A stretch of DNA of 64,000 nt, taken from Azonexus sp. Its GTDB lineage: Bacteria > Pseudomonadota > Gammaproteobacteria > Burkholderiales > Rhodocyclaceae. This document shows, piece by piece, positions 1,580 to 59,354 of this stretch; positions within the stretch are counted from its first letter, which is position 1, and each line of letters opens with the position of its first letter. Location of the stretch: positions 1 to 64,000 of the forward strand of contig JAGOBB010000013.1 in NCBI GenBank assembly GCA_017983615.1. Direction: 5' to 3'. The position numbers were made by a program, and so were the translations under genes. Below the pieces are notes generated by a model, which saw only the letters and a list, made by a program, of their open reading frames with translations, was not told the DNA's origin and did no database searches.

Positions 1580-1593
1580 ATGCTACGGTCGGC
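1580..1593 (+). repeat. Dispersed repeat, copy 1 (ATGCTACGGTCGGC)
   Basis: Exact 14-mer in the gap between the tRNA fragment and the SulP gene. A tracts follow at 1597-1602 and 1607-1611, 10 bp apart start to start. This is the clearest example of the core-plus-two-tracts layout. Confidence 0.9.
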
Positions 1594-1692
1594 CCGAAAA
1601 AATGGCAAAAATCGAAATGTTTCTGCGCCTTGTTTAGGCTGGGGCGGTGTAAACGTGCGCCCAGTGGACGAATCCGCGGGGTTGGCTACGCT

Positions 1693-3387
1693 TCAACAGT
1701 AGTCTTCCTCCGAACCGCCCATCAAATTGGGCAGCAGGATGTAGGCGCGCTGGAGGGCGACTGACAGATCAGGGCAGACATTGTCGTCACCGAGGTGATC
1801 AATGAAGCCTGATCGGTATAGAAGCGATCCCGGTTGGGAGTTGAGTCCGCACACGATCAGCGTACAACCGCGTTTCTTCAGCTTGTCGAGCAGGTTTTCC
1901 AGCCCTTCCAGACCAGTGGTGTCGAGCTGGATCAGTTGCGTCATGTCGAGAATGACGACCTCGGGGTGGCCGGCAGCCGGGTCGAGCAGAGCCTCAAGTT
2001 TATTGACCGCGCCAAAAAACAGCGAGCCGAACAGTTGCCAGGCGGCGACCCGCATGCTGCCGTCCGGATAGAGGAACTGGGGCTCGCTGGCTTCTTCGCG
2101 CAGCGGGCGCCGCTCGACGCGGGTGAGTTCGGACATGCGGTAGATGAAGAACAGGCTGGCCAGCACCATGCCGAGCTCGACGGCGACGGTCAGGTCAAAG
2201 AGCACTGTGACGAAGAAGGTAGCGAGCAGGATGATCCGGTAGTTGTAGGAGTAGCGCTGCAACTCCTTGAACTCATGCCATTCGCCCATGTTGATGGCGA
2301 CGACCATCACGATGGCCGACAGGGCGGCCAGCGGTACATAGGAGGCGAGTGGCGCAGCGATCAGCACGATGCCGAGCAGGGTGATGGCGTGGATGATGCC
2401 GGCAATCGGCGTGCGGCCACCGGACTTGACGTTGGTCGAGGTGCGGGCGATGGCCCCGGTGGCGGCAAAGCCGCCAAACAGGGGGGCGGCAATATTGGCC
2501 AGGCCCTGGGCGACCAATTCCTGGTTGGGGTCGTGGCGGTCGTCGATCTGGCTGTCGGCGACGCGTGCCGAGAGCAGGGACTCGATGGCGCCGAGCAGGG
2601 CGATGGTGATCGCCGGCGAGATCAGTTTGCCGAAGTCGTGAATCGACAGTTCGGGCAGGCCGAAACCGGGCAATTCCTGCGGAATGCCGCCAAAGCGGCT
2701 GCCGATGGTTTCCACCGGCAGTTCGAACAGGAAGGATACCAGGGTGCCGACGAGCAGCACGGCGAGCGGACCGGGAGCCCGGCGCAGCAGTGCCAGGCGC
2801 TGTGCCAGCCAGTTGTAGGAGAGCAGGAATACGAAGCAGGCAGAGGCCAGCCCCAGCGTCGGCAGGTCGACGGTATGGGCATAGGCGGCCAGCGTCTTGA
2901 TGCGATGGAAGAATTCAGCCGGCAGGTTGTCGATGCGCAGGCCGAAGAAATCCTTGATCTGGGCGAGGAAGATGACCACGGCGATGCCGTTGGTGAAGCC
3001 GATGACGACGGTGACCGGGATGAAACGGATCAACTGCCCCATGCGGGCGAGGCCCATGGCGAGCAGGAAGACGCCGGCCAGCATGGTGGCCCCCAGCAGG
3101 TTGTTGTAGCCGTGGATGGCGACGATGCCATAAACGATGGGGATGAAAGCGCCGGTCGGGCCGCCGATCTGGACGCGCGAGCCGCCGAGGGCGGAAATCA
3201 GGAAACCGGCAATGATGGCGGTCCAGATGCCGGCGGTTGGTGAGCATCCGGAAGCGATGGCGAAAGCCATGGCCAGGGGCAGCGCCAGTACCCCAACCGT
3301 GATCCCGGAGGCGATGTCCTTGCCGAGCTGCGTCCGGTTGTACGTTGGCAGGCAGTCAAGCAGCTTGGGGCGGAAGGCGATTTTCAT
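1693..3387 (-). CDS. SulP-family inorganic anion transporter with STAS domain
   Basis: A 564-residue inner-membrane protein. The N-terminal two thirds carry many hydrophobic segments, beginning with the family signature region ASGITVGVLALPLAMAFAIA (about residues 27-46). The C-terminal part, about residues 450-550, is a STAS domain (VVILDMTQLIQLDTTGLEGL). SulP proteins move sulfate, bicarbonate or dicarboxylates; the substrate cannot be read from the sequence. ATG is at 3385-3387. A good sigma70 promoter lies just upstream on the minus strand. It faces a divergent ribbon-helix-helix gene whose probable operator overlaps the promoter, so that regulator may control it. The long plus-strand frame over this gene is antisense. 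Confidence 0.93.
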   Translation of the reverse strand: MKIAFRPKLLDCLPTYNRTQLGKDIASGITVGVLALPLAMAFAIASGCSPTAGIWTAIIAGFLISALGGSRVQIGGPTGAFIPIVYGIVAIHGYNNLLGATMLAGVFLLAMGLARMGQLIRFIPVTVVIGFTNGIAVVIFLAQIKDFFGLRIDNLPAEFFHRIKTLAAYAHTVDLPTLGLASACFVFLLSYNWLAQRLALLRRAPGPLAVLLVGTLVSFLFELPVETIGSRFGGIPQELPGFGLPELSIHDFGKLISPAITIALLGAIESLLSARVADSQIDDRHDPNQELVAQGLANIAAPLFGGFAATGAIARTSTNVKSGGRTPIAGIIHAITLLGIVLIAAPLASYVPLAALSAIVMVVAINMGEWHEFKELQRYSYNYRIILLATFFVTVLFDLTVAVELGMVLASLFFIYRMSELTRVERRPLREEASEPQFLYPDGSMRVAAWQLFGSLFFGAVNKLEALLDPAAGHPEVVILDMTQLIQLDTTGLEGLENLLDKLKKRGCTLIVCGLNSQPGSLLYRSGFIDHLGDDNVCPDLSVALQRAYILLPNLMGGSEEDYC

Positions 3388-3414
3388 GATGCACGCTCAC
3401 AGGTTAAGCGTTGC

Positions 3415-3442
3415 ATTATATGAGTGCTTGATTAATCGTCAA
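3415..3442 (-). promoter_or_regulatory. sigma70-type promoter of the SulP gene
   Basis: On the minus strand TTGACG (3437-3442) is followed after 16 bp by a perfect TATAAT (3415-3420). Transcription would start near 3407, about 20 bp before the ATG. The -35 box directly abuts the TGTTAAT direct repeats. Confidence 0.65.
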
Positions 3443-3494
3443 TGTTAATCACATGTTAATATGATTCGATACAAATCCAATAAGAGCGAATCAT
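3443..3494. promoter_or_regulatory. Probable operator between the SulP and ribbon-helix-helix genes
   Basis: TGTTAAT occurs twice in direct orientation, at 3443-3449 and 3454-3460, 11 bp apart, so both copies face the same side of the helix. An inverted pair ATGATTCG (3461-3468) and CGAATCAT (3487-3494) follows, the second copy overlapping the start codon. A TAATAT at 3457-3462 could be the -10 box for the rightward gene. Repeats one helical turn apart are typical of ribbon-helix-helix operators, so autoregulation is likely. The function is inferred. Confidence 0.5.
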
Positions 3495-3684
3495 GGAGAA
3501 TAGAACTGCACGCCTGACGATCCTGATCGATCCACGGAAAAAGAAAATATTCGAGGAGATATGCACTGCCAACGACTTGACGCCATCGCAGGTCGTGCGC
3601 CGGCTGGTCCGTCAGTACATCATCGACAACGCAGGAAGTCGTGAATTGCCGGACTGGCTGAAACCGAGCGCCAAGGGCGATTAG
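3493..3684 (+). CDS. Small ribbon-helix-helix (CopG/Arc-like) DNA-binding protein
   Basis: A 63-residue protein. A short beta strand (ARLTILID) is followed by two helices (KKKIFEEICTANDL and TPSQVVRRLVRQYIID), the standard ribbon-helix-helix fold that dimerises and places the strand in the major groove. The C-terminus is short and polar. No toxin gene follows, so this is more likely a stand-alone repressor than an antitoxin. The upstream direct and inverted repeats and the divergent SulP promoter suggest that it represses itself and perhaps the transporter. Its stop codon interlocks with that of the convergent membrane-protein gene. Confidence 0.75.
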   Translation: MENRTARLTILIDPRKKKIFEEICTANDLTPSQVVRRLVRQYIIDNAGSRELPDWLKPSAKGD

Positions 3685-4013
3685 TCCAGCGTTTCGCTTT
3701 CCTTGGTGCGGACTTTGTCGGGGTGGTTGGTCGCCAGGTAGGCGTCGTACGCTGCCTGCATCTCCGTACTCTGCTTGGAAATTTCCCGGAGGATGCGCGC
3801 CACTGCCCAAAACATGACAGCAGCGCCGCCTGCCGTGCAGGCGAAAGCTTCTGCGGTCGAGGTTGGAAAATCGGCCAGGATCGCGCCATTCCCTGTGGCG
3901 AACCAGCTCGCCCCGATGGCGACGCAGCCGAGGCCGAAAACATCGGCGATGGCGTAGGCGAAGATGCGAAGGGTCAGTCGAGGACGGGGTGGGCGCAGGC
4001 GGGATGTCAGCAT
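3681..4013 (-). CDS. Small inner-membrane protein of unknown function
   Basis: A 110-residue protein read from ATG at 4011-4013, which has a GAGG about 8 bp upstream. A longer frame to a TTG at 4079 has no good ribosome site and was not chosen. Two hydrophobic segments are visible (about residues 16-38 and 45-72: IFAYAIADVFGLGCVAIGAS and AFACTAGGAAVMFWAVARI), followed by a charged C-terminal tail (EISKQSTEMQAAYDAYLA). The family is not recognised. It converges on the ribbon-helix-helix gene with overlapping stop codons. Confidence 0.6.
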   Translation of the reverse strand: MLTSRLRPPRPRLTLRIFAYAIADVFGLGCVAIGASWFATGNGAILADFPTSTAEAFACTAGGAAVMFWAVARILREISKQSTEMQAAYDAYLATNHPDKVRTKESETLD

Positions 4014-4079
4014 GGTGTGAGCCTCGAAGGGGGGTGACTGAAAAAAGTCTTCCGGAGGACTTGACAATGTGAAAGTCAA

Positions 4080-4361
4080 GTCTGTGACTTATGCACAGTA
4101 ATGGGGCGTAGTTTGATCGGATGGCGAGAGCTTGGTGGTAGATTTATCAAATTGGTATTTTCGATTGATAGATCGTTAAAAATCAATTGGTTAGAAATAA
4201 GCTCAAGTTTCGGGCACGGTAAGGAAAAACCTTGTGGAACGGCAACTTAGCTTTCTGGCTTCTGATTAACTCACAGAGTTATCCACAGTTTTTGTGGATA
4301 GTTCGAAAAGCTTAAACCCTGTAGCCGGATTGCTGGCCAAAGTTAAAGTGATACTTGAACT
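4080..4361. other. AT-rich gap with DnaA boxes and an IHF site
   Basis: This gap holds no gene. It contains a perfect DnaA box TTATCCACA (4279-4287), a second match to TTATNCACA (TTATGCACA, 4089-4097) and an opposite-strand near match TGTGGATAG (4293-4301). A perfect match to the IHF consensus, AATCAATTGGTTA, lies at 4181-4193 in the most AT-rich part. The first and third boxes also form an inverted repeat TATCCAC/GTGGATA around a T-rich loop. DnaA boxes plus IHF in an AT-rich gap are seen in replication control loci such as oriC and datA. No dnaA gene is nearby, so a DnaA-binding accessory locus is the more likely reading, if it is real. Confidence 0.4.
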
Positions 4362-4392
4362 TGTGCGGCGATTTTGCTGCGCCGCAACAAGA

Positions 4393-4424
4393 AACGGCCC
4401 GCGTCGCGGGCCGTTCCAGATGGC
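4393..4424 (-). terminator. Terminator of metG
   Basis: A perfect 10-bp GC-rich stem AACGGCCCGC / GCGGGCCGTT with a 3-base loop, 15 bp beyond the metG stop. On the minus strand a T-rich stretch follows. A second small hairpin (TGCGGCG/CGCCGCA, about 4362-4386) lies just beyond it. Confidence 0.75.
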
Positions 4425-4430
4425 ATGAGT

Positions 4431-6521: not shown

Positions 6522-6719
6522 GAGAGGCAAGGCTTTAAAGATAAAGGCTGATTTTACCGCGAGGAATGTCGCCCCGGGATTTCGTGACCCAAACTCGAGG
6601 CGTGCAGCGCCAGATTGTTAGGGAAGGTAAACGAGTGTCATGGCTTGGTAAAAGATGCCATATCGATCATTGCCGAATGCTAATGTTCGGCGCAGAATTC
6701 GCGCGAATTGGGAGGGTCT

Positions 6720-8573: not shown

Positions 8574-8593
8574 TTTTTTGCCAAAACCCCACG

Positions 8594-11553: not shown

Positions 11554-12030
11554 CTAGCTGCGGCGGTAGCTCAGGAAGCGGAAGCCGCTTCCCTCGGTCG
11601 TCGCAGTCACGGTCCAGTCGGCCGGGGAAATTTCCGGGAACCAGGCATCGCCTTCCGGCTCAAGGTCGACCTCGGTGATCTCCAGGCGGTCGGCGACGGC
11701 CATCGCCTGCCGGTAGATCTGCTCGCCGCCGATGACGAAGGCAAATGCTACGGTCGATGCCATTTTCAGGGCAATTTCCAAAGATTCGGCTAGTTCGGCG
11801 TCGGGCGCGCTGTAGTCGGCCTGCCGGCTGATCACGATGTTGCGCCGGCCGGGCAGGGGACGGAAGCGCGGTGGCAGCGATTCCCAGGTCTTGCGGCCCA
11901 TGATGACCGTGTGACCGGCGGTCAGCGCCTTGAAATGCGCCATGTCTTCCGGGATGTTCCAGATCAACTGGTTGTCCTTGCCGATGACCCGGTTCTTGGC
12001 GACAGCGGCGATGATGACGACTTCGGTCAT
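11554..12030 (-). CDS. folA: Dihydrofolate reductase
   Basis: Reduces dihydrofolate with NADPH, regenerating the cofactor consumed by thymidylate synthase. The 158-residue protein has the substrate site NQLIWNIPEDMAHFK (about residues 19-33), the NADPH motif GHTVIMGRKTWESLP (about residues 39-53) and the second glycine segment FVIGGEQIYRQAM. It is the last gene of a leftward thyA-pgi-folA cluster, with its start 3 bp after the pgi stop. The dispersed repeat lies inside the gene on the opposite strand and encodes STVAFA before FVIGGEQ, in a variable loop. Confidence 0.96.
   Translation of the reverse strand: MTEVVIIAAVAKNRVIGKDNQLIWNIPEDMAHFKALTAGHTVIMGRKTWESLPPRFRPLPGRRNIVISRQADYSAPDAELAESLEIALKMASTVAFAFVIGGEQIYRQAMAVADRLEITEVDLEPEGDAWFPEISPADWTVTATTEGSGFRFLSYRRS
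11745..11760 (+). repeat. Dispersed repeat, diverged copy in folA
   Basis: ATGCTACGGTCG followed by ATGCC instead of GCC. The flank then has T and A/T tracts (ATTTT, AATTT, CCAAA), matching the spacing in the other copies. It is antisense to folA. Confidence 0.75.
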
Positions 12031-13623: not shown

Positions 13624-13625
13624 GT

Positions 13626-16131: not shown

Positions 16132-16222
16132 TTGTTAGTGGTTAGTCGGTAGTTGTTAGCGAAGTTGGGGGGGCGCTGTGGCGCCCTCTGCTTTTGCTAA
16201 AGGCTATCGGCTATAACTAACT
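16130..16222. repeat. TAGT-rich palindromic repeat, copy A
   Basis: An imperfect palindrome about 93 bp long. The left arm has TAGTTGTTAG units, the centre is a GC hairpin GGGCGC/GCGCCC, and the right arm is TTTTGCTAA followed by TATAACTAAC. The central 50 bp closely match copy C at 42658-42752. The left edge contains the upstream gene's TAG and the right edge contains the mogA TAG, so the element provides stop codons to both converging genes. Confidence 0.8.
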
Positions 16223-16804
16223 TTTCACCCGGATCGCCGACTTCGGCCGGAAGGCCTTGATCACAGTCTCGTCGGTTTCCATGTAGGGGCCGCCGATCAG
16301 GTCGATGCAATAGGGTACGGCGGCGAAGATGCCGACGTGGGCAACCGAGCCGTCCGGGTTGCGGACGCCTTCCAGCGTTTCCTTGATCGACTTCGGCTGG
16401 CCGGGCAGGTTGATGATCAGCGCCTGTTTGCGGATCACGGCGACCTGGCGCGACAGGATGGCGGTCGGCACGAAGTTCAGGCTGATCCGCCGCATTTCCT
16501 CGCCGAAGCCTGGCATTTCCTTGTCGGCGACGGCCAGCGTGGCTTCCGGTGTGACATCGCGCAGGGCAGGGCCGGTGCCGCCGGTGGTCAGGATCAGGTG
16601 GCAAATGCTACGGTCGGCCAGTTCAATGAGGGTGTTTTCAATGGTCTCCCGGTCGTCGGCGATCAGCCGCGTCTCGGCGCGCCACGGCGTGGTCAGCGCG
16701 CTGGAAAGCCATTCCTGCAGGGCCGGGATGCCCTTGTCTTCATAGACGCCGGTTGAGGCGCGGTCGCTGATCGAGACCAGTCCGATGACGAGTTCTTCAT
16801 TCAT
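16217..16804 (-). CDS. mogA: Molybdopterin adenylyltransferase
   Basis: Adenylates molybdopterin, the step before molybdate insertion in molybdenum-cofactor synthesis. The 195-residue protein has the MoCF motifs ICHLILTTGGTGPALRDVTP (about residues 68-87) and a later NLPGQPKSIKETLEGV. It overlaps the yjgA end by 8 bp. The dispersed repeat lies inside and encodes LADRSICH on the antisense strand. The stop codon is contributed by palindromic repeat A. No other moa or moe gene is adjacent, though a MoeB/ThiF protein lies about 11 kb away. Confidence 0.93.
   Translation of the reverse strand: MNEELVIGLVSISDRASTGVYEDKGIPALQEWLSSALTTPWRAETRLIADDRETIENTLIELADRSICHLILTTGGTGPALRDVTPEATLAVADKEMPGFGEEMRRISLNFVPTAILSRQVAVIRKQALIINLPGQPKSIKETLEGVRNPDGSVAHVGIFAAVPYCIDLIGGPYMETDETVIKAFRPKSAIRVKS
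16605..16618 (+). repeat. Dispersed repeat, copy in mogA
   Basis: Exact ATGCTACGGTCGGC, antisense to mogA. The downstream tracts are weak here (TT, then TTTT). Confidence 0.9.
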
Positions 16805-19996: not shown

Positions 19997-20115
19997 ATGG
20001 GAGCTCGCTGCAGGCATGACAAGATGCTGTTTCTCCTCTAGCCAACCGGCCGGAATTGATCAAGAATCCCTCATCCCTTCGGGGGTTCGTTCATCAACAT
20101 CGACAAGGAGACAAC

Positions 20116-21237
20116 ATGCAACGTCGTGATTTTCTGGCCAAGGCTTCTGCGGGTGCAGCAGCACTGTCACTGGCGGCCTGCGGGAAGAATGAAGAGGCCG
20201 GGAAGTCTGTTTCCGGCGCCCCGGCGGTCCGGGGAGGGTTGCCTGAAATCAAGTGGCGTCTCACTTCCAGCTTCCCGAAGAGTCTGGATACCATCCACGG
20301 CGCTGCCGATGTGCTGGCCAACCGGCTGCGTGCGATGACTGGCGGCAAGTTCGATATTCGCGTCTTCCCGGCCGGCGAGATCGTTCCCGGCCTGCAGGCG
20401 CTCGATGCCGTCCAGCAAGGGACGGTCGAGTGCTGTCATACCTGTTCCTACTATTACGTCGGCAAGGACAAGACCTTCGGCTTCGGCACGTCCATCCCGT
20501 TCGGCATGACCGCGCGCCAGATGAATGCGTGGATCTACTTCGGGGGCGGCCAACAACTGCTCGACGAGTTCTATGCCAACTACAACGTGATTTCGTTCGC
20601 CGGCGGCAATACCGGCACCCAGATGGGCGGTTGGTGGCGCAAGGAAGTGCATACCGTGGCCGATCTGAAGGGGATCAAGATGCGCATCGCTGGCCTGGGC
20701 GGGTCAGTTTTTTCCTCTCTTGGCGTCGTGCCGCAGCAGATTGCCGGTGGCGACATCTATCCGGCGCTGGAGAAAGGAACCATCGATGCCGCCGAATGGG
20801 TAGGCCCGTACGACGACGAGAAACTGGGTTTTTACAAGGTGGCCAGCAACTACTATTACCCCGGTTGGTGGGAGCCGGGTCCAGTCATCCATTTCTTTGT
20901 GAACAAGGCAGAATGGGCCAAATTGCCGAAGGAATACCAGGAAGCGTTCCAAGCGGCAGCCTACGAGGCGAATGTCACGATGGCCGCCGAGTACGATCAC
21001 AAGAATCCGACAGCCCTGGCCCGGCTGATGCAGGCTGGCGTCAAGGTCAAGGAGTTTTCATCCGAAATCCTCAAGGCCAGCGCCCAGTCGGCGGCTGACC
21101 TCTATGCCGACGAGGCGGCCAAGAACCCGGCCTTCAAGAAAATTTACGTCGAGTATGACAAATACCGGCGCACCCAGGCCGCCTGGTTCAGTCTGGCGGA
21201 AAGACGCATGGATGGCTTCCTGCAGACCGGCAAATAG
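20116..21237 (+). CDS. TRAP transporter substrate-binding lipoprotein DctP, copy 2
   Basis: A 373-residue paralogue of the neighbouring DctP. ATG at 20116 follows AAGGAGA; a longer frame to 20056 is less likely. The signal is unusual: twin arginines (MQRRDFLAKAS) followed by a lipobox LAAC near residue 22, so it is predicted to be a Tat-exported lipoprotein, whereas copy 1 should be soluble in the periplasm. Large blocks are the same as in copy 1, for example the IVPGLQALDAVQQGTVECCH region and the conserved WWRKEV. The dispersed repeat begins 4 bp after the stop, followed by a terminator. Confidence 0.92.
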   Translation: MQRRDFLAKASAGAAALSLAACGKNEEAGKSVSGAPAVRGGLPEIKWRLTSSFPKSLDTIHGAADVLANRLRAMTGGKFDIRVFPAGEIVPGLQALDAVQQGTVECCHTCSYYYVGKDKTFGFGTSIPFGMTARQMNAWIYFGGGQQLLDEFYANYNVISFAGGNTGTQMGGWWRKEVHTVADLKGIKMRIAGLGGSVFSSLGVVPQQIAGGDIYPALEKGTIDAAEWVGPYDDEKLGFYKVASNYYYPGWWEPGPVIHFFVNKAEWAKLPKEYQEAFQAAAYEANVTMAAEYDHKNPTALARLMQAGVKVKEFSSEILKASAQSAADLYADEAAKNPAFKKIYVEYDKYRRTQAAWFSLAERRMDGFLQTGK

Positions 21238-21240
21238 CAA

Positions 21241-21254
21241 ATGCTACGGTCGGC
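21241..21254 (+). repeat. Dispersed repeat, copy after dctP2
   Basis: Exact ATGCTACGGTCGGC just behind a stop codon. A tracts follow at 21258-21262 and 21269-21273, 11 bp apart, and a terminator hairpin comes immediately after. Confidence 0.92.
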
Positions 21255-21275
21255 CCCAAAAATGGCACAAAAATG

Positions 21276-21309
21276 AAAAAGGCCCGCGACTCGTTCGCGG
21301 GCCTTTTTT
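21276..21309. terminator. Bidirectional terminator between dctP2 and dps
   Basis: A 9-bp stem GGCCCGCGA / TCGCGGGCC with loop CTCGT is flanked by an A run on the left and a T run on the right. It can therefore end both the rightward dctP2 and the leftward dps transcripts. Confidence 0.9.
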
Positions 21310-24027: not shown

Positions 24028-24131
24028 GAAAAGTCCTCCTCGGTTGATAGAATTCCCAGCTTCTAAATGTGGCCGGGGTTAAATGGAAAATCCCAAGGCT
24101 TTCAATTTACAGCGAAGGCGAACGACAAAAA

Positions 24132-24788
24132 ATGGTGGAAATCCCTACACGCCAGCCCACGCGCATCTGCCTGGTGCGCCACGGCGAGACCGAGTGGAAT
24201 GCCGAACGGCGCATCCAGGGGCAGATCGACATCGGCCTCAACGAAACCGGCCTCCGGCAGGCGGTTGCTGCCGGGCGCTGGCTGAAGCATAGCGGGATTA
24301 TGGCGCTCTACAGCAGCGATCTCAAACGGGCCTGGACCACGGCGCAAGCCATTGGCCACGAACTTGGCCTTGATCCGGTGCCGACGCCCGAGATGCGCGA
24401 ACGTCGCTACGGGGTGTTCGAGGGGCTGACCTACGACGAGGCGAAGATCCGGCATCCGGCTGGCTATGCGGCTTTTGAGGGGCGTAACGCCGATTACGAC
24501 TTCGAGAATGGCGAAAGCCTGCTCGCCATGTTCAAGCGCGTGACCGGCAAATTGGAGGAAATCGCGGCCCGGCATGCGGGAGGGATCGTCGCCGTCGTCC
24601 TGCACGGCGGTGTGCTCGACATCATCAACCGCTTCGTGCGTGGCAATTCCCTGGAAACGCCACGCGATTTCCTGATCCCCAATGCCGGCATCAACTGGAT
24701 TGCTACGGTCGATGGCTCGTGGAGCCTGGAATCATGGGCCGAAACCGACCATCTGGAGCCGGGCGCCCTCGACGAGCTTCCGGCGTGA
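24132..24788 (+). CDS. Histidine phosphatase (phosphoglycerate mutase-like)
   Basis: A 218-residue cytoplasmic enzyme of the histidine phosphatase superfamily. The catalytic RHG motif is in ICLVRHGETEWNAERRIQGQ (about residues 12-31). The second histidine is in VAVVLHGGVLDII (about residues 156-168), and a conserved ERRYGVFEGLTYDEA lies between. It resembles GpmB or alpha-ribazole phosphatase types, and the true substrate is unknown. ATG at 24132 is preferred to a GTG at 24069. A diverged copy of the dispersed repeat encodes IATVDG near the C-terminus. It precedes glyA by 40 bp. Confidence 0.85.
   Translation: MVEIPTRQPTRICLVRHGETEWNAERRIQGQIDIGLNETGLRQAVAAGRWLKHSGIMALYSSDLKRAWTTAQAIGHELGLDPVPTPEMRERRYGVFEGLTYDEAKIRHPAGYAAFEGRNADYDFENGESLLAMFKRVTGKLEEIAARHAGGIVAVVLHGGVLDIINRFVRGNSLETPRDFLIPNAGINWIATVDGSWSLESWAETDHLEPGALDELPA
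24701..24715 (+). repeat. Dispersed repeat variant (TGCTACGGTCGATGG)
   Basis: Shares TGCTACGGTCGATGG exactly with the copy in proS (58321-58335, other strand). It lacks the leading A and the downstream tracts, so it may be a decayed copy or chance; two identical 15-mers favour a relationship. Confidence 0.55.
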
Positions 24789-26147: not shown

Positions 26148-26624
26148 ATGAAATGTCCTTTCTGCGGCACTGAAGACACGGCGGTTGCCGATACCCGTCT
26201 GAACGACGATGGTGACGTCGTCCGCCGTCGCAGAAAGTGCAACGCCTGCGACAAGCGTTTCACAACCTACGAACGGGCCGAAATCCAGCTGCCGCAGGTG
26301 GTCAAGAAGAACGGCCTGCGTACAGAGTTCAGCCGGGCCAAGCTGCGTGCCAGCCTGGAGCTGGCGCTACGCAAGCGGCCGGTGTCGATCGAATCGGTCG
26401 ATGCTGCCGTCGCCGATATCGAGGAAAAACTGCTGTCGGCCGGTGAGCGCGAAGTCAGCACGCAGCAGTTGGGCGAGTTGGTCATGCGCGAGCTGAAGAA
26501 GCTCGACAAGGTGGCCTACATCCGCTTCGCCTCGGTCTATCGCAATTTCGAAGACGTCGATGCCTTTTCCAAGGCCATCCGCGAAGTTTCGCCCGCTTCC
26601 TCCAGCACCTCCAAGAAAAAATGA
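26148..26624 (+). CDS. nrdR: Transcriptional repressor NrdR
   Basis: Represses ribonucleotide reductase genes in response to ATP/dATP. The 158-residue protein has the zinc ribbon CPFCG (residues 3-7) with CNACDKRF (about residues 31-38), then an ATP-cone domain ([20 protein letters not shown]). It ends with a short lysine-rich tail. It overlaps ribD by 4 bp (ATGA), so the two are translationally coupled. Confidence 0.96.
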
Positions 26625-27709
26625 GCTTCACGGCCGTCGACCACGGCATGATGGCCCGCGCCCTGCAACTGGCCGAGCGCGGGCTGTGGACGACCGCGCC
26701 CAATCCGCGGGTCGGCTGTGTGCTGGTCAAGAATGGCGAAATCGTCGGCGAAGGTTGGCACGAAAAAGCTGGCGAGCCACATGCCGAAGTCCATGCCCTG
26801 CGCGCTGCGGGCACCAAGGCGAGGGGCGCCACCGCCTATGTGACGCTGGAACCGTGCAGCCATCATGGCCGCACGCCGCCCTGCGCCGAAGCCTTGATCG
26901 CAGCGGGGGTCTCGCGTGTCGTGGCGGCGATGAGTGACCCCAATCCACTGGTCGCCGGCAAGGGCCTCGCCTTACTACAGGCGGCCGGCATCGATACGGC
27001 GGTCGGTTTGCTGGAAAACGAGGCGCGCGAACTGAACATCGGTTTCGTGTCGCGAATGACTCGCGGCCGGCCCTGGCTGCGCCTGAAGGCAGCGGCCAGC
27101 CTGGATGGAAAGACTGCGCTGAACAACGGCGTCAGCCAGTGGATTACCGGGCCGGATGCGCGGCGCGATGGCCATGCCTGGCGGGCCCGGGCCTGCGCCA
27201 TCCTGACCGGCATCGGCACGGTGCGCGACGACGATCCGCAACTGCTGGTGCGCGATGTCGAAACGACCCGCCAGCCGCTGCGCGTGGTTGTCGACAGCCG
27301 CTTCGAGATCTCGATGACGGCGCGCATTCTGCAGAATGGCGGGGTGCTGGTGGTCGGCGCGACCGAAAATGCCGAAAAAATCCAAATGCTACGGTCGGCC
27401 GGAAATTTCGTCGAAATTCTGAAAAATCCCGCCGGCAAGGTCGATCTGAAGGCCTTGCTCGAATTGCTGGCGCAGCGCGGCATCAACGAAGTGCACGCCG
27501 AAGCTGGCTTCAAACTGAACGGGTCCTTGCTGCGCGAAGGGCTGGTCGATGAACTGCTGCTCTATCTGGCGCCCTGCCTGATCGGCCACGACGCCAGCGG
27601 TCTGTTCAACCTGCCGGAACTGACTACCCTAGACGACAGGCGCCGCCTGCAGATTCGCGATCTGCGTCAGGTCGGCGAAGATATTCGCCTGATCGCGCGT
27701 CTCCGTTAG
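26621..27709 (+). CDS. ribD: Bifunctional riboflavin deaminase/reductase RibD
   Basis: Deaminates the pyrimidine product of GTP cyclohydrolase II and then reduces it, two early steps of riboflavin synthesis. Of the 362 residues, the N-terminal deaminase has [14 protein letters not shown] near residue 50 and [18 protein letters not shown] near residue 76. The C-terminal reductase follows from about residue 145 ([20 protein letters not shown]). An exact dispersed repeat encodes QMLRSAGN near residue 258. The last 86 bp overlap the 3' end of the opposing moeB-like gene. The rest of the rib operon is not in the window. Confidence 0.95.
27386..27399 (+). repeat. Dispersed repeat, copy in ribD
   Basis: Exact ATGCTACGGTCGGC in sense orientation. 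It is followed by AAATTT, AAATT and AAAAA tracts at roughly 10-bp steps. Confidence 0.92.
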
Positions 27710-35291: not shown

Positions 35292-36008
35292 TCAATCCCT
35301 GAGCGCGCGAGCGACGACGGCGACCGTGACCGAGGCGGCGCCATGCAGTTTCAGCACGCGGGCACATTCGTTGGCCGTGGCACCAGTGGTCAGCACGTCG
35401 TCGACCAGCAGAATTCGCATCCCGCTCAGGTCAGCGCGGCATTCGAAGGCGCCACGCACGTTTTTACGCCGTTCCTTGGGCGCCAATTCGGCCTGGGGAG
35501 TGGTTGGCCGCGTGCGCACCAGAATGCTACGGTCGGCCCGAAAAAAGAGGCAATTTCCAAATTCGCGGGCAATTTCCGCGGACTGGTTGAAGCCGCGCTG
35601 ACGCAGGCGTTCAGGGTGCAAGGGCAGGGGCAGGGTGAGGTCGAAGCTCTCGGCGGCGAGGTGTTTCGCCAGTCGCTGCCCGCACCACTTGGCGACTGCC
35701 AGTTGATGGCCGTATTTCAGGGCATGGACGATGCGGTCGGCCGGGAAGTCGTAGCGAAAGAGGGCTATCGTCCGGTCGAAATGGGGTGGATCCTTCAGGC
35801 AGGCGCCGCAGCGTTCACCGTGCGTGGTACGGTCGGCGCAAATCGGGCAGCTAGTTTGAGGCAGCGGCGGCAAGTCGGCGACACACAATTGGCAAAGCAA
35901 TTCGCTGGCACTGTCTCCGCCGCACAGCAGGCAACTGGCCGGGAGCAGCGCATCGCCGAGGCGCCGGGCAAATCTCTTGAAGCCATCGGGGTGGGGTAAA
36001 ATTGACAT
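35292..36008 (-). CDS. comF: ComF family phosphoribosyltransferase-like competence protein
   Basis: Needed for DNA uptake in naturally competent bacteria. The 238-residue protein has an N-terminal zinc finger (CLLCGGDSASELLCQLC, then CPICADRTTHGERCGAC) and the PRPP-type loop MRILLVDDVLTTGATANECA near the C-terminus. ATG at 36006-36008 (MSILPHPDG) is preferred to longer frames. A copy of the dispersed repeat lies inside, encoding FRADRSIL just before the conserved RTRPTTPQAEL. The gene is divergent from bioB. Confidence 0.92.
   Translation of the reverse strand: MSILPHPDGFKRFARRLGDALLPASCLLCGGDSASELLCQLCVADLPPLPQTSCPICADRTTHGERCGACLKDPPHFDRTIALFRYDFPADRIVHALKYGHQLAVAKWCGQRLAKHLAAESFDLTLPLPLHPERLRQRGFNQSAEIAREFGNCLFFRADRSILVRTRPTTPQAELAPKERRKNVRGAFECRADLSGMRILLVDDVLTTGATANECARVLKLHGAASVTVAVVARALRD
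35524..35537 (+). repeat. Dispersed repeat, copy in comF
   Basis: Exact ATGCTACGGTCGGC, antisense to comF, followed by AAAAAA, AATTT and AAATT tracts. A partial TACGGTCGGC also occurs 300 bp to the right in the same gene. Confidence 0.92.
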
Positions 36009-36091
36009 CCAGCCGGAGCGTCCGCGATAATTCATAATTACCGATTTGTTTCGTGTCTGATTTTTATAGCATTTTTCACGCAAGGCCTCCC

Positions 36092-43367: not shown

Positions 43368-43397
43368 CGGTGTCCCCTCCTCAATTTTGGTTTTTGC

Positions 43398-44042
43398 CTA
43401 ATTTTTCAGCCGACCGTAGCATTTTGGCAGCTGTGTTGCTGAGCGGATTTTAACGTCAACAAAGGGCGATTGGCGTAAGCCAGCGCTCACCCACACGGTC
43501 TTCATGCCGAGTTTCTTGGCGGTGACCAGATTGACCAGGCTGTCCTCGACCATGATGCAGCGGCGGGGATCGAGGTGTTCTGCCCGGAGCAGGGCGCGGA
43601 AGCCGGCGAGCATCGGCTTGGGCTGAAAACGGATGTTCTCGACTGAATAAACGGCGTCGAAACAGGCATCCAGGCCGGTGATGCCGAGTATGGCGTCGGT
43701 GTAATGGCGCGGGGCGTTGGAGAAAATGATTTTGCGACCGGGCAGGCGGCGCAGGGCATGGATCAGCGGCTTTTCGAAGACGACCATGCGGGCGAGGTCG
43801 GGAAACTGGTGGGTTTCGCGCAGGAAGTGTCGCGGGTCGGTGCCATGGTGGCGCATCAGGCCGAGCAGGGTGGCACCGTAGCGGTCCCAGTAGTCCTGGC
43901 GGATGCGTGTGGCTTCGTGTTCGTCGACGCCGAGGTGGCGTTCGATGTATTCGCGCATCGACCGGTTGATGTGCGGGAAGATATGCGGGCTCGCGTTGTG
44001 CAGCGTGTTGTCGAGGTCGAACAGCCAGACGGGGTTTTTCAT
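43398..44042 (-). CDS. HAD-family pyrimidine 5'-nucleotidase-like hydrolase
   Basis: A 214-residue HAD hydrolase: motif I WLFDLDNTLHN at the N-terminus, motif II IIFSNAPRHYT, and motif III/IV CIMVEDSLVNLVTAKKLGMK. It is similar to the pyrimidine 5'-nucleotidases next to slmA in betaproteobacteria; the substrate is not proven. The last residues (QLPKCYGRLKN) are encoded by a copy of the dispersed repeat, so the repeat forms this protein's C-terminus and stop region. Confidence 0.87.
   Translation of the reverse strand: MKNPVWLFDLDNTLHNASPHIFPHINRSMREYIERHLGVDEHEATRIRQDYWDRYGATLLGLMRHHGTDPRHFLRETHQFPDLARMVVFEKPLIHALRRLPGRKIIFSNAPRHYTDAILGITGLDACFDAVYSVENIRFQPKPMLAGFRALLRAEHLDPRRCIMVEDSLVNLVTAKKLGMKTVWVSAGLRQSPFVDVKIRSATQLPKCYGRLKN
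43409..43422 (-). repeat. Dispersed repeat, copy at the end of the HAD gene
   Basis: Exact ATGCTACGGTCGGC on the minus strand, followed by AAAAATT and AAAAA tracts. It is in sense orientation and encodes CYGRL. Confidence 0.92.
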
Positions 44043-45558: not shown

Positions 45559-46006
45559 AGCTGGCTTGAATCTGTTCCGGCAGTAACAGGATGGCATCCC
45601 GGTTGGTCCAGGAAAAGCAGCGGTCGGCCGCTTCCCTCAAGGGTAGCCATTGCCAGGCACGATGCTCGGCAGGCGCCGTGGTGACCTCGATCGGCGCGGA
45701 AATACAGAGACTGAAGACGTGTTCGACGTTGTGGGTGACGCCCGGCGCGTAGCGGTGTCGCCATTCGCTGAATATTTCGAAGCTGTTGCTCAGCGACCAG
45801 TCGGAAAAGTCCGCCAGCGGGGCATCGATGCCGGTTTCTTCGAGGACTTCGCGCCGAGCGGTTTCGCTCAAGGCTTCATTCCCTTCGCGGCTACCGGTTA
45901 CCGACTGCCAGAAGCCGGAATGGGCGGCGCGTTCGAGGAGCAGGATCTCCAGCGCCGGGGTGTGGATGACGACGAGGACCGAGACGGGCTGCTTGGGGGC
46001 GGTCAT
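45554..46006 (-). CDS. nudB: Dihydroneopterin triphosphate diphosphatase (Nudix)
   Basis: Removes pyrophosphate from dihydroneopterin triphosphate in folate synthesis. The 150-residue protein has a Nudix box spanning GSREGNEALSETARREVLEE plus TGID (about residues 37-60). It follows aspS with only the RNase and barstar genes between, matching the usual aspS-nudB neighbourhood. It overlaps the barstar stop by 4 bp. Confidence 0.9.
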   Translation of the reverse strand: MTAPKQPVSVLVVIHTPALEILLLERAAHSGFWQSVTGSREGNEALSETARREVLEETGIDAPLADFSDWSLSNSFEIFSEWRHRYAPGVTHNVEHVFSLCISAPIEVTTAPAEHRAWQWLPLREAADRCFSWTNRDAILLLPEQIQASS

Positions 46007-46431
46007 GCCTCGGGGAAGGAGGGAATGCCCCGGGCCGGCGTATCGATCAGTATCCAGAAAGGTTCCAGCCGTTCGCGTCGGGCCTCGGCCACGGCCAGGA
46101 AGACTTCAATCAACGTGGTGAAGTCGTCGGGGTCGGTTGTCCGCAGGCGCTTCATCCCGCTGATCACGAGAACGTGGCCCTTGGCCGGCTGCCAGTCGGG
46201 ATCGCACAGGCAGTCAAACAGGGCGTCGAAGTTGGCGCCGTACCAGATCGGAAAATTGAGGGCGCTGCCCAGTTGGGAGAGCACGCTTTCGACCGATGCC
46301 TGCTCAGCGATATCGGCCTTCATTAGGCAGAAACGAGCACGGCTGGCTGCCGACTCGACCATCGCCAGCCGCGCTGGCGGCAAGTGATACAGGCCGGAAG
46401 CGGCAGCATCCTTCAGCGGGTTATCGCTCAT
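46003..46431 (-). CDS. Barstar-family ribonuclease inhibitor
   Basis: A 142-residue cytoplasmic protein. The inhibitor helix and loop are seen as FPIWYGANFDALFDCLCDPD (about residues 60-79). Asp69 and Asp73 match barstar Asp35 and Asp39, the residues that plug the barnase active site. There is no signal peptide. It overlaps the RNase gene by 4 bp upstream and nudB by 4 bp downstream, so it should be made together with the enzyme that it neutralises. Confidence 0.9.
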   Translation of the reverse strand: MSDNPLKDAAASGLYHLPPARLAMVESAASRARFCLMKADIAEQASVESVLSQLGSALNFPIWYGANFDALFDCLCDPDWQPAKGHVLVISGMKRLRTTDPDDFTTLIEVFLAVAEARRERLEPFWILIDTPARGIPSFPEA

Positions 46432-46799
46432 CGTCCATCCTGTTCCGTGATTCGCCGGAAGGTCCGGTAATGGTCGTCGGTGTAGTAGTACTCGTTGCCC
46501 CGTCCGGCGATGATCCGGCGCGGCCCGCGATCACGACGCCACGGGGTTTTCACCGTGTATTCACGGTAGTAGCCGCGAGGGTGCAGCGGCAGTCGTTTCT
46601 CGAAATTGCCGAAAGCGATGCCATCGCGTTCGTAAGGGAAAGGGCCGCCGGCCTTGATCAGCGCCAGCGTCTCCCGGGCTTCAGGCGGCAAATTTGCCGC
46701 AAAAATCGGGCCGACCGTAGCATTCTGGTCGAAGCTGAATCCAAATGCGCTCCCGATCGCCAGCCAGGCGACGATCAGGAGGCGCAGACAGATCTGCAT
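46428..46799 (-). CDS. Secreted barnase-like ribonuclease
   Basis: A 123-residue protein with a signal peptide (MQICLRLLIVAWLAIGSAFG) and a guanyl-specific RNase domain. Catalytic residues by comparison with barnase: Glu80 in YYREYTVKTP (barnase Glu73), an arginine in RRIIAGR, and His110 in YYTDDHYRTF (barnase His102). Export plus a cytoplasmic inhibitor gives a self-protected toxic RNase, used for nutrient RNA or against competitors (not shown). A dispersed-repeat copy encodes NATVGP at the start of the mature protein. Confidence 0.9.
   Translation of the reverse strand: MQICLRLLIVAWLAIGSAFGFSFDQNATVGPIFAANLPPEARETLALIKAGGPFPYERDGIAFGNFEKRLPLHPRGYYREYTVKTPWRRDRGPRRIIAGRGNEYYYTDDHYRTFRRITEQDGR
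46710..46723 (-). repeat. Dispersed repeat, copy in the RNase gene
   Basis: Exact ATGCTACGGTCGGC on the minus strand, in sense. It is followed by ATTTTT and AAATTT tracts about 11 bp apart. Confidence 0.92.
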
Positions 46800-54725: not shown

Positions 54726-54728
54726 GGC

Positions 54729-55568: not shown

Positions 55569-55597
55569 CCTTGAATTCTACAAGAAGCCCAACTGAC

Positions 55598-56953
55598 ATG
55601 CTCGATAACCTGACCAATCGCCTTGCCCGCGTCATGAAGACGCTGAAGGGCGAAGCGCGCCTGACCGAAACCAATATTGCCGATGCGCTGCGTGAAGTGC
55701 GGATGGCTCTGCTGGAGGCCGATGTGGCCTTGCCGGTGGTCAAGGAATTCATTGCTGCGGTCAAGGAAAAGGCGGTCGGTGAAGAGGTCATCGGTTCGCT
55801 TAGCCCGGGGCAGGCGCTGATCGGTGTCGTCCATGCCGAACTTACCAAGATCATGGGCGCCGCCCACGAGGGCATCAATTTCAATACTCAGCCGCCGGCC
55901 ATCGTGCTGATGGCCGGTTTGCAAGGCGCCGGCAAGACGACGACGGTCGGCAAGCTGGGCAAGTTCCTGAAGGAAAACCACAAGAAGAAGGTGCTGGTGG
56001 TTTCCTGCGACGTCTATCGTCCGGCGGCTATCGAGCAGTTGAAGTCGGTGGCTGGCCAGGCCGGGGTCGATTTCTTCCCGTCGGCGGTCGGCGAGAAGCC
56101 GGAGGCCATCGCCACCGCGGCGATCGACTGGGCCAAGCGCCATTACCACGACGTGCTGCTGGTCGATACGGCCGGTCGTCTGGCCATTGACGAAGAGATG
56201 ATGGCCGAAATCAAGCGCCTGCATGCGGCGATCAACCCGATCGAAACGCTGTTCGTCGTCGATGCGATGCTGGGCCAGGATGCGGTCAATACCGCCAAAG
56301 CCTTCAACGAGGCCTTGCCGCTGACCGGTGTCGTGCTGACCAAGCTGGACGGCGATGCGCGTGGCGGGGCGGCGCTTTCGGTGCGTCACATCACCGGCAA
56401 GCCGATCAAGTTCGCCGGCGTCGGCGAAAAGCTGACTGGTCTAGAAGCCTTCCATCCCGAGCGGATGGCCTCGCGCATCCTGGGTATGGGCGACGTCCTG
56501 TCGCTGATTGAGGAGGCGCGCAAGGGGCTGGACGAGGAAAAGGCGGTCGCCTTCGCCAAGAAGTTGAAGTCCGGCAAGAGCTTCGATCTCAACGACTTCA
56601 AGGACCAGATGGCGCAGATGCGCAGCATGGGCGGCCTGTCGGCGCTGATGGACAAAATGCCGGCGCAGATTGCCCAGGCTGCCGGTCAGTTGCCGGCTGG
56701 CGCCGAGAACAAGATGGTTGGCCGCGTCGAAGGCATCATCAATTCGATGACGCCGGCCGAGCGCGCCAAGCCGGAGTTGATCAAGGCCAGCCGCAAGCGC
56801 CGCATCGCCACGGGCGCTGGGGTGCAGGTGCAGGATGTGAATCGCCTGCTCAACCAGTTCGAGCAGATGCAGAAGATGATGAAGCAGTTCAGCAAGGGCG
56901 GCATCGGCAAACTGATGCGCGGCATGAAGGGCATGATGCCGGGTATGCGCTGA
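55598..56953 (+). CDS. ffh: Signal recognition particle GTPase Ffh
   Basis: Binds signal sequences and 4.5S RNA to target membrane proteins. The 451-residue protein has an N domain, G1 GLQGAGKTTTVGKL (about residues 107-120), G3 DTAGRLAIDEEM, G4 TKLDGDARGG and a methionine-rich M domain (KMMKQFSKGGIGKLMRGMKG). ATG at 55598 was chosen. A dispersed repeat lies 32 bp after the stop. Confidence 0.97.
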   Translation: MLDNLTNRLARVMKTLKGEARLTETNIADALREVRMALLEADVALPVVKEFIAAVKEKAVGEEVIGSLSPGQALIGVVHAELTKIMGAAHEGINFNTQPPAIVLMAGLQGAGKTTTVGKLGKFLKENHKKKVLVVSCDVYRPAAIEQLKSVAGQAGVDFFPSAVGEKPEAIATAAIDWAKRHYHDVLLVDTAGRLAIDEEMMAEIKRLHAAINPIETLFVVDAMLGQDAVNTAKAFNEALPLTGVVLTKLDGDARGGAALSVRHITGKPIKFAGVGEKLTGLEAFHPERMASRILGMGDVLSLIEEARKGLDEEKAVAFAKKLKSGKSFDLNDFKDQMAQMRSMGGLSALMDKMPAQIAQAAGQLPAGAENKMVGRVEGIINSMTPAERAKPELIKASRKRRIATGAGVQVQDVNRLLNQFEQMQKMMKQFSKGGIGKLMRGMKGMMPGMR

Positions 56954-56984
56954 TTTTCCGGTGAATCTGGCGCCGGCCGGGCAA

Positions 56985-56998
56985 ATGCTACGGTCGGC
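56985..56998 (+). repeat. Dispersed repeat, copy between ffh and the transglycosylase gene
   Basis: Exact ATGCTACGGTCGGC in the 70-bp gap between converging genes. It is followed by A tracts at 57002-57008 and 57013-57016, 11 bp apart, then a third run up to the transglycosylase stop. Confidence 0.92.
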
Positions 56999-57024
56999 GC
57001 CAAAAAAAGGCCAAAATCAAAAAA

Positions 57025-57636
57025 TCAGTTTCCGACCTGCGCCAGTCGGCCAGCCTTTTCGTAGCCCCATTGATTTTGCCAGGCGGCACGCACCATGTTC
57101 GGGTACTCGGGCTTGCCGAGGCTGCCGTTGTAGCGGCCGAGGGCGCGGAAAAGGTCGCCCTTCTCGATGTCCAGATAGTGGCGCAGGATGGTGCAGCCGT
57201 AGCGCAGATTGGTGCGCAGATCGAACAGCGAGTCCTCAGGGCGGCCGATGATCTTGACCCAGAAGGGCATGACCTGCATGTAGCCGCGGGCGCCCGCCGA
57301 TGACACGGCATATTTGCGAAAACCCGATTCGACCTGCATCAGACCGAGCACCAGTTGCGGGTCCAGTCCGGCCCGCGTCGCTTCGTAATGCACGCTGCGC
57401 AACAGGTCGATGCGGTATTCCCGGTTCGGGATGCGTTTCTCCAGCCGCGGCGACATCGCCGCCAGCCAGTCGACGGCCTCCATCGGCGTTTTGAATGAAC
57501 TGACCGCTGGCCGGGAGTCGGAAACCGCCTTGTGTAGCGCTGCCTGCGCACTGGCCGACAGCACTTCGTACTTCTGCGCGCCGGCGTAGGCCGCCGACGC
57601 GCCGCTCAACAGCAGGGCCGCAATCAGGCGGCGCAC
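57025..57636 (-). CDS. Lytic transglycosylase (SLT domain)
   Basis: A 203-residue exported protein. A signal peptide ([18 protein letters not shown]) precedes an SLT domain with [20 protein letters not shown] (catalytic glutamate in QVESGF), [17 protein letters not shown] and [14 protein letters not shown]. It cleaves peptidoglycan glycan strands. The start is GTG at 57634-57636 and overlaps the end of proS by 13 bp. Confidence 0.92.
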
Positions 57637-59354
57637 AGCTTCCCTTGCAGAGTGGCCAGGATGTCTATCTGGGCGATCATCGTCGCCTCGGCATCGGTCC
57701 GTCCTTTGTACTCGAACTGACCGTCCTTCAGGCCACGCTCGCCAATCACCACGCGATGCGGGATACCGATCAGTTCCATGTCCGCGAACATGACGCCGGG
57801 GCGCTCGTTGCGGTCGTCGAGCACGACATCGACCCCGGCCTTCTTCAGGTCGGCGTAAAGCTGGTCGGCGGCGGCCTTGACCGCCTCGCTCTTGTGATAG
57901 CCCATCGGCACGATGCAGACTGCAAACGGCGCGATGGCCGGCGGCAGAATGATGCCCCGCTCGTCGTTGCCCTGTTCGATGGCGGCGCCGACGATGCGCG
58001 AGACACCGATGCCGTAACAGCCCATTTCCATGATCTGGCTCTTGCCGTTTTCGTCGAGATAGCTGCAGCCGAGGGCCTCGGCGTATTTTTGGCGCAACTG
58101 GAAAATGTGGCCGACTTCGATGCCGCGCAGGATTTCCAGCGTGCCCTGGCCGTCCGGCGAAGTGTCGCCGGCGACAACGTTGCGCAGATCGGCGACTTCC
58201 GGCTCAGGCAGGTCGCGGCCAAAATTGACACCGCTCAGGTGAAAGCCAGCCTCGTTGGCGCCGCAGACAAAATCGCTCATCACTGCAACGCTGCGGTCCG
58301 CGAAAATGGCCACTTTTTTGCCATCGACCGTAGCAGGGCCGATATAACCGGGCTTGCAGCCGAGGTGTTGCTCGACTTCGCCTTCCGTGGCGAAACGGAA
58401 GGGATTGATGGCGGCAATCTTGCTCGCCTTGATCTCGTTCAGTTCGTGGTCGCCGCGCAACAGCAGTAGCGCAAAGGTCGTGCTGCCGTCTTCCTTCTCG
58501 CTGATCACGGCAATCGATTTGACGATTTTATCCAAGCCTACACCAAGGCATTCTGCCACATCGACACACGCCATCTTGCCCGGCGTGGCGATCTTTTCCA
58601 TGGCTTTCGTCGCTGCTGCGCGCGGCGTGGCCGGCGCTATCGCTTCAGCCAGCTCGACATTGGCGGCGTAACCGGAATCCGGGCAGAAAGCGATGTCGTC
58701 CTCGCCGGAATCGGCCAGGACGTGGAACTCATGCGATCCCGTGCCGCCGATCGAGCCGGTGTCGGCCGCGACAGCGCGGAACTTCAGGCCGAGGCGGGTG
58801 AAGATGCGGCTGTACGTCTCGTACATGTTGCCGTACTCACGCTTCAGATCGTCGAACGAGGTGTGGAAGGAGTAGCCGTCTTTCATCAGGAACTCGCGGC
58901 CGCGCATGACGCCGAAACGGGGACGAATTTCGTCGCGGAACTTGGTCTGCACCTGATAGAGGTGAATCGGCAGTTGGCGATAGCTCTTCACATCGCGGCG
59001 TACGACGTCGGTGATCACTTCCTCATGCGTCGGCCCAATGACGAATTCGCGCTGGTGACGGTCCTTGAAGCGCAGCAGTTCCGGGCCGTATTGCTCCCAG
59101 CGGCCGGATTCCTGCCACAGTTCTGCCGGCTGAACGGCCGGCATCAGCAGTTCCAGTGCGCCGGCATTGTTCATTTCTTCGCGGACGATATTTTCGACCT
59201 TGCGGAGCACGCGCAAACCCAGCGGCATCCAGGTGTAAATGCCGGCGGCGGCGCGCTTGATGTAACCAGCGCGCAACATCATCTTCTGGCTGATGACCTC
59301 GGCGTCGCTCGGGGCTTCCTTGAGAGTGGTGAAAAAGAACTGCGAAGTACGCAT
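57624..59354 (-). CDS. proS: Prolyl-tRNA synthetase
   Basis: Charges tRNA-Pro. It is a 576-residue bacterial-type class II enzyme with motif 1/2 ([20 protein letters not shown], then [20 protein letters not shown]), an INS editing domain in the middle (about residues 225-405) and a C-terminal anticodon domain. A variant of the dispersed repeat encodes ATVDGKK in the editing domain. It is divergent from rppH. Confidence 0.97.
58321..58335 (-). repeat. Dispersed repeat variant in proS
   Basis: TGCTACGGTCGATGG on the minus strand, followed by CAAAAAAG. It is identical over 15 bases to the copy at 24701. Confidence 0.6.

Follow-up and report, generated by a model that had tools for sequence, protein, structure and literature searches.

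The subject of this study is a short repeated motif in a 64-kb stretch of DNA (the window) of Azonexus sp., contig JAGOBB010000013.1, positions 1 to 64,000. In its fullest form, the motif has a core, aAATGCTACGGTCGgC, followed on one side by tracts of A and T, and we interpret it as a putative self-recognition tag for DNA uptake. The copies in the window, with the genes in which or beside which they lie, are as follows.

1578 to 1619, plus strand: full copy, the core with all three A/T tracts; between genes, on the 3′ side of a gene for a sulfate permease (1693 to 3387, minus strand)
11743 to 11784, plus strand: copy with a 12-base core (GAT after CGGTC), tracts present; within a dihydrofolate reductase gene (11554 to 12030, minus strand)
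16603 to 16644, plus strand: copy within a gene with a MoCF_biosynth domain (16217 to 16804, minus strand); gapless in 10 of 10 orthologs
21239 to 21280, plus strand: copy directly past the stop of a DctP gene (20056 to 21237, plus strand); a hairpin-like stretch containing a run of T comes next
24698 to 24739, plus strand: doubtful copy consisting of the core TGCTACGGTCGATGG only, lacking A/T tracts; within a histidine-phosphatase-family gene (24069 to 24788, plus strand)
27384 to 27425, plus strand: copy in a ribD-type gene (26621 to 27709, plus strand), read in frame as MLRSAG; no gaps in alignment with 29 further genomes of the genus
35522 to 35563, plus strand: copy within a ComF/GntX-like gene (35292 to 36083, minus strand)
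43383 to 43424, minus strand: copy spanning the 3′ end of a HAD-hydrolase gene (43398 to 44042, minus strand)
46684 to 46725, minus strand: copy within a barnase-type ribonuclease gene (46428 to 46799, minus strand)
56983 to 57024, plus strand: copy in the intergenic gap adjoining a transglycosylase gene (57025 to 57636, minus strand)
58297 to 58338, minus strand: variant copy (GAT after CGGTC), tracts present; within a gene with prolyl-tRNA-synthetase-type domains (57624 to 59354, minus strand)

A search of both strands placed the exact copies where the original prediction had put them. Nine exact 14-mers had been claimed and eight were found, six on the plus and two on the minus strand, so that its itemized sum of eight 14-mers and one 12-base copy at 11745 was correct. 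The two additional copies of TGCTACGGTCGATGG were also located, at 24701 on the plus strand and at 58321 to 58335 on the minus strand. The latter has A/T tracts and looks like a true variant of the motif; the former is a doubtful member because only two of the five positions of its first tract are A or T, and it may be a chance match or a decayed copy. The claim that the motif exceeds chance in the window was borne out by 22 matches at up to three mismatches, compared with a mean of 7.67 in shuffled sequence, and none of 100 shuffles reached 22.

The whole genome, represented by 2,921,885 bases (2.92 Mb) in 34 contigs and 85.66% complete, contains 391 copies of ATGCTACGGTCG and none of the reversed pattern, which is far from the near-chance counts that would have spoken against a genome-wide signal. 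The copies are evenly divided between the strands (195 forward and 196 reverse), and in a second genome of the genus, G029, the counts are 96 and 113. To describe the anatomy of the motif, we read directly a 464-kb sample of the one genome, comprising the window and 20 stretches of 20 kb, in which the four most frequent 10-mers and the eleven most frequent 12-mers are all fragments of the motif. Ninety-six copies were aligned on GCTACGGTC, with its G as position 0. The full motif is approximately 40 bp long: AA at −3 and −2 (94% and 91%) and T at −1 precede the core, G at +9 (79%) and C at +11 (75%) follow it, and A/T tracts occupy +15 to +20, +26 to +30 and +33 to +36, the last consisting of A, with GGCC-like bases at +22 to +25 between the first two. 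The two tracts named in the original prediction are therefore real, the first beginning 4 bp past the 14-mer and the second 11 bp further, although the third tract was not listed there. Outside −5 to +37 the signal is flat, and the copies share no similarity past the tracts. A profile of 43 positions, for which the copies it scores were also the training set, gave 100 hits at a score of at least 12, compared with none for the reversed profile; 99 hits remained at 16 and at 18, and 84 at 35, and the exact 9-base core was missing in only five hits scoring at least 17. In both known uptake sequences, perfect copies far outnumber singly mismatched ones, according to PMC1626085, and by its profile our motif shares this trait of strong consensus.

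The placement of the copies is not that of random sequence. Among 384 genes predicted in the sample by a simple gene caller (85.3% coding), 51 of 97 copies are intergenic, compared with an expected 14.7%, and 17 of these 51 are flanked by convergent gene pairs. The 46 coding copies occupy five of the six frame and orientation classes and encode unrelated peptides (ATVD, MLRS, CYGR, LTVA, DRSI). Thirty-three of them run parallel to the gene, of which at least one (35526) is miscalled because the Pfam-supported gene there lies on the opposite strand; the overlapping plus-strand open reading frame chosen by the caller (35343 to 35999) has no Pfam match. A same-orientation bias of coding copies is also known for Pasteurellaceae and Neisseria, as reported in PMC2346458. 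The spacing, which had been proposed as a check together with strand balance, is more even than random, with a coefficient of variation of 0.66 compared with 0.97, and none of 2000 random placements was as low. The 85 gaps between copies have a mean of 5.0 kb, and only five are shorter than 1 kb, whereas 15.5 would be expected. The largest motif-free gap is 13.4 kb, and a PHROGs scan of five proteins from it revealed no clear phage structural gene.

Two of the genes bearing copies merit a separate remark. The ComF/GntX-like gene belongs to a competence-linked family, and it scores under the NCBIfam cut-offs. The ribonuclease gene overlaps a barstar inhibitor gene (46003 to 46431), and the pair (46003 to 46799) is likely a toxin-immunity pair.

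We believe, with a probability of roughly 0.83, that the repeat serves this genus as the tag by which a system of sequence-specific DNA uptake (natural transformation) recognizes self DNA. The Haemophilus-like architecture proposed in the original prediction, in which a core is accompanied by helically spaced A/T tracts, holds, and an uptake-signal-like recognition sequence is supported by the genome-wide counts, the lack of similarity past the tracts and the origin of coding copies by substitution, which is described below. The role in DNA uptake itself is suggested by analogy with the two known systems. Neisseriaceae belong to the Betaproteobacteria, the class that also includes the hosts of this motif. 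According to a 2025 paper (PMC12616744), Pasteurellaceae and Neisseriaceae are the only families known to have uptake signals, and a 2026 terminator survey (PMC13020248) names the same two. Among the literature matches listed for uptake sequences in Rhodocyclales, a coverage from which subscription papers and most preprints fall outside, there was no report of the motif.

The uptake signal sequence (USS) of Pasteurellaceae exists in two types that follow phylogeny, Hin AAGTGCGGT and Apl ACAAGCGGT (PMC1626085 and PMC12616744). The USS resembles our motif in its short exact core, flanked on a single side by A/T tracts that are spaced by roughly one helical turn, in the CGGT of its core (TGCGGTC in one dialect here), and in its many copies, lack of strand bias, origin by substitution and strong consensus. 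Both have two 3′ A/T segments at helical spacing, which lie here at +15 to +20 and +26 to +30 and are joined by a third. The differences are that our hosts are betaproteobacterial, that the core is CGGTC[AG][AG]C, with ACGG in dialects D1 and D3 in place of the GCGG inner core of the USS, that the first tract begins 6 bp past GGTC with +9 to +14 between them, that a third tract is present, and that the density is lower and close inverted pairs are absent. The DNA uptake sequence (DUS) of Neisseriaceae, GCCGTCTGAA and its dialects, occurs in 943 to 5918 copies per genome, with eight dialects and five genomes of the family lacking an obvious one (PMC3630211). The existence of dialects in related species and of genomes lacking the motif is common to both cases, but the DUS is an uninterrupted sequence that contains a CTG core and lacks flanking A/T tracts, whereas our motif has tracts and a different core. 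All of the sequence-level traits of uptake signals that were tested were found at the sites examined, with the exception of inverted-pair terminators and the exact family cores. The motif thus appears to work like a USS, yet it is neither the USS of Pasteurellaceae nor the DUS of Neisseriaceae.

We compared 76 genomes of the genus (G-numbers; fetched stretches have L-numbers). A generic pattern requiring CGGTC[AG][AG]C was counted on the forward strand only because its variable gap lists one reverse site several times. It separates 44 carriers (at least 80 copies), 6 intermediate genomes (30 to 52) and 26 non-carriers (3 to 24), with 0 to 32 for the reversed control. The carriers use different dialects, all of which have CGGTC[AG][AG]C in common. 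The D1 core GCTACGGTCGGC is abundant in only three genomes (117+112 copies in G000, 65+65 in G029 and 82+101 in G094, with 0 to 4 in the other 73), whereas TGCGGTCGAC reaches at least 100 copies in 36 of the 76 (reversed control at most 25) and TACGGTCAAC does so in 11, with up to 506. Word counts in 80 kb per other species identified the dialect cores TGCGGTCGAC in G020 and G030, CCACGGTCAACC in G084, CTGCGGTCAACC in G097, and TACGGTCGAC with CACGGTCGAC in G061. Phased A/T is present in the dialects read directly, and it is weaker in G030 and G086. The word counts found no motif in G035, G060 and G018. In G086, which has 1256 copies of TGCGGTCGAC, only six lie in the 80 kb counted (C6:100001-180000, L177-L180), and the core did not top the word list; the copies may be unevenly distributed along that genome. 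Because 80-kb word counts are thus weak, the absence of the motif in G035, G060 and G018 leans also on their whole-genome forward counts of 11, 16 and 20. In G003, seven exact D1 12-mers occur beside the commoner core TGCGGTCGAC (271 copies), which may reflect an import of DNA, contamination or mixing of dialects.

The dialects appear to replace one another in place. Where D1 copies have orthologous positions in carriers of another dialect, the CGGTC core is kept in 42 of 54 pairs, compared with 4 of 13 for two non-carriers, G035 and G060 (Fisher p 0.002, a guide only because the pairs are not independent in site or ancestry); in G029 it is kept in 6 of 8. Over CGGTC, carriers show an identity of 0.91, compared with 0.81 in the flanks, whereas the two non-carriers show 0.74 compared with 0.82. 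At the orthologs of the copy at 16603 to 16644, carriers of other dialects show their own form of the motif. The non-carrier G035 retains one full-looking copy at the 43409 locus.

The same comparison bears on how the copies arose. The gene ribD was matched in 73 of the 76 genomes, and the best 30 of these, including our own genome, were aligned; the copy at 27386 lies on conserved LRS-type residues in a region that is gapless against the 29 others, and the orthologs of several species carry CTACGGTCAAC or CTGCGGTCGAC at the same codons, some with tracts. For 13 sites, 75 ortholog pairs could be compared in the stretches read from other genomes. Inside genes, 43 of 55 pairs are gapless, including 20 of 20 at sites 16607 and 24702 (the latter copy being the doubtful member), and substitution therefore appears to be the origin of the copies at well-aligned coding sites. 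In G029, the locus orthologous to 46710 contains a short G/C-rich hairpin-like insertion within the motif copy, which it disrupts.

Several other explanations of so frequent a motif should be considered. It could be the site of a protein that organizes or segregates the chromosome, such as a nucleoid-associated protein or a factor of the matS, KOPS or Chi kind, with a purely intracellular function. Even spacing, a near-perfect consensus and genome-wide presence agree with such a role, but the balance of 195 to 196 speaks against a polar signal of the Chi or KOPS type, the lack of the motif in 26 of 76 genomes and the several dialects in one genus are unlike a housekeeping site, and phased A/T tracts confined to one side of a core form the pattern of an uptake signal; we regard this role as unlikely. 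HIP1 of cyanobacteria, Chi and KOPS are all heavily over-represented short motifs, the first a short palindrome and the other two strand-biased, whereas our motif is asymmetric in sequence and balanced in orientation. A highly iterated motif of the HIP1 kind, or a site of methylation or restriction avoidance, might be proposed from the extreme over-representation and from the palindrome GTCGAC within the TGCGGTCGAC dialect; however, the full motif is an asymmetric element of some 40 bp with A/T tracts, and dialect cores without GTCGAC exist (TACGGTCGGC, TACGGTCAAC), which makes this proposal very improbable.

We are equally disinclined to consider the motif a transcription terminator or other regulatory element. 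Half of the copies are intergenic, a third of those (17 of 51) lie between convergent genes and a hairpin-like stretch follows the copy at 21241, but 46 of 97 copies lie inside called genes in five frame and orientation classes, and no inverted pairs that could form hairpins occur in the 464 kb. The least credible explanation, to which we assign almost no weight, is that a small transposable or repetitive extragenic palindromic (REP)-like unit left the copies behind as its remnants. Many exact copies do resemble a young repeat family, and some gap within the motif stretch is found in 29 of the 75 ortholog pairs. However, no similarity extends outside −5 to +37, coding copies such as those in ribD and at 16607 and 24702 lie gapless on conserved in-frame residues, other dialects occupy the orthologous places, and the gaps are mainly at intergenic or gene-end sites. 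An insertion origin is refuted at the coding sites aligned, and the longer transposable unit that the original prediction had considered as a possible undoing did not appear.

The interpretation of the motif as an uptake tag must also be weighed against several observations that do not favor it. The gaps just mentioned affect 9 of 10 intergenic pairs (only 1 of 10 being gapless), 8 of 10 pairs at the gene-end site 43409 and 12 of 55 inside genes, and because of the gaps at intergenic sites, gapless origin is established for coding copies only. The motif occurs once per 7.5 kb as a 12-mer in this genome, which is a lower density than that of the H. influenzae and Neisseria uptake sequences, at about one per kb (PMC1626085). 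No closely spaced inverted pairs were found in the 464 kb, where the nearest neighbors are 317 bp apart, whereas both known families use such pairs as terminators. The remaining observations concern the competence machinery. In favor of the interpretation, this genome encodes a ComEC/Rec2 protein of 848 amino acids, which scores above the TIGR00361 cut-off, and an HHH protein of the ComEA type, which scores above that of TIGR00426. ComEC was matched in 71 of the 76 genomes and ComEA over the cut-off in 67, a total that weaker matches raise to 75, although those listed are mostly frames of about 780 to 830 amino acids and are probably another protein. Six of the nine genomes with no ComEA match over the cut-off are carriers (G015, G003, G087, G097, G076 and G094), and G097 is a complete genome. 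Neither ComEC integrity nor ComEA presence separates carriers from non-carriers. FimT/GspH, matched in 69 of 76 genomes, was rejected as the receptor by presence or absence, having no visible link to the motif, and a by-eye survey of 10 complete genomes, with major-pilin regions left out, found no carrier-specific pilin.

The receptor search covered further candidates. In the same 10 genomes, N_methyl pilin clusters occur in carriers and non-carriers alike, and two cluster types were fetched. The charge of mature FimT-type pilins (isoelectric points of 6.4 to 10) did not follow the motif. Pilins are present, and none could be tied to the motif; the pilin searches of this genus identified no receptor like ComP, the receptor of the DUS, or the predicted receptor ComN.

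Loss of competence genes as the cause of motif loss is not supported because comEC damage occurs in both classes. The gene is broken or shortened in 5 of 21 non-carriers examined (G035, G018, G088, G098 and G099) and also in the carriers G002, G005, G029 and G067; it is split at contig ends or between frames in G008, G019 and G074. It is a single frame in the other 16 of the 21 non-carriers, with one or two stops in the aligned span in G093, G027, G095 and G060. In several species, the interruptions recur at two fixed places, reference residues 311 to 314 (L309, L305, L304, L307, L286) and reference residue 330 (L315, L317, L319), and the halves lie about 32 to 34 kb apart in G088 and G002. 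Mobile elements that have end sequences in common may be responsible.

In the sample searched, the motif appears restricted to the genus. From the same order, 399 genomes were drawn, six of which belong to the genus; among the 393 others, including seven from other genera of the family, none exceeded 20 by the generic pattern, which would miss other cores in other genera, and a few were slightly above their own control (e.g., 14 compared with 5). Betaproteobacteria bacterium AG28 and Loclat_bin-15563, both metagenome-assembled genomes, are among the carriers. An exact match to the target of probe DCMAG455 is present in the 16S gene of G060; the probe is listed for Dechloromonas agitata and covers also a few sequences of Ferribacterium, Quatrionicoccus and uncultured Rhodocyclaceae; on the basis of this target, the genus would be Dechloromonas-like (Rhodocyclales). 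In a wider scan, AAATGCTACGGTCGGC was found in at least 68 genome-contig stretches, and the 19 outside the two carrier metagenome-assembled genomes had no A/T tracts by eye and were taken as chance hits. Of 21 viral contigs with AATGCTACGGTCGGC, two had tracts when judged by eye: L244 (305 to 319) and L247 (7669 to 7683), related viral contigs of 41 and 35 kb with one D1 copy each in the 1.2 and 11.7 kb examined. Phages of these hosts may carry the tag.

A tree of ComEC, a single protein with a midpoint root, was built for 66 genomes (41 carriers, 19 non-carriers and 6 intermediate). The D1 species form one clade (100/99), and the other dialects were compared with the tree by eye. Carriers fall to either side of the root. 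Eight changes are required to account for the non-carrier label, at least seven of them forced by well-supported branches. This pattern fits an early presence of the motif in the genus followed by repeated loss.

According to the model that we favor, uptake would begin with binding of the CGGTC-centered core by a DNA receptor, located either on the cell surface or at the type IV pilus tip. The A/T tracts, lying on one side about one helical turn apart, would help the duplex to bend or melt for entry, one strand would be brought in by ComEA and ComEC, and recombination would follow. Because uptake would favor tagged DNA, copies created by point mutation would be copied back into the population and would accumulate evenly on both strands, mostly between genes, by molecular drive. 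Drift in receptor specificity would change the tags in place at the same loci and thereby create dialects, and lineages that lose the specificity would lose their tags.

The best reading of these data is that Dechloromonas-like Rhodocyclales possess a third sequence-specific DNA-uptake system. More tentatively, and with more doubt than confidence, we suggest that this third lineage was ancestral to one betaproteobacterial genus and bears a tag of the Pasteurellaceae kind although its hosts are only distantly related to that family, either because a pilus receptor moved between hosts or because the entry step forces the design, and that it later underwent in-place switching of dialects and several losses. 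Uptake signals have been known from two families only, and ideas on their origin, on the reason for there being two kinds and on the role of the A/T tracts have rested on two cases. A single genus with carriers, non-carriers, several dialects and some complete genomes is a natural comparative set, in which co-variation with dialect can guide the search for receptor genes, and a tree can show where tags arose, switched and were lost. The interpretation also predicts that transformation lets these bacteria exchange DNA among their own kind.

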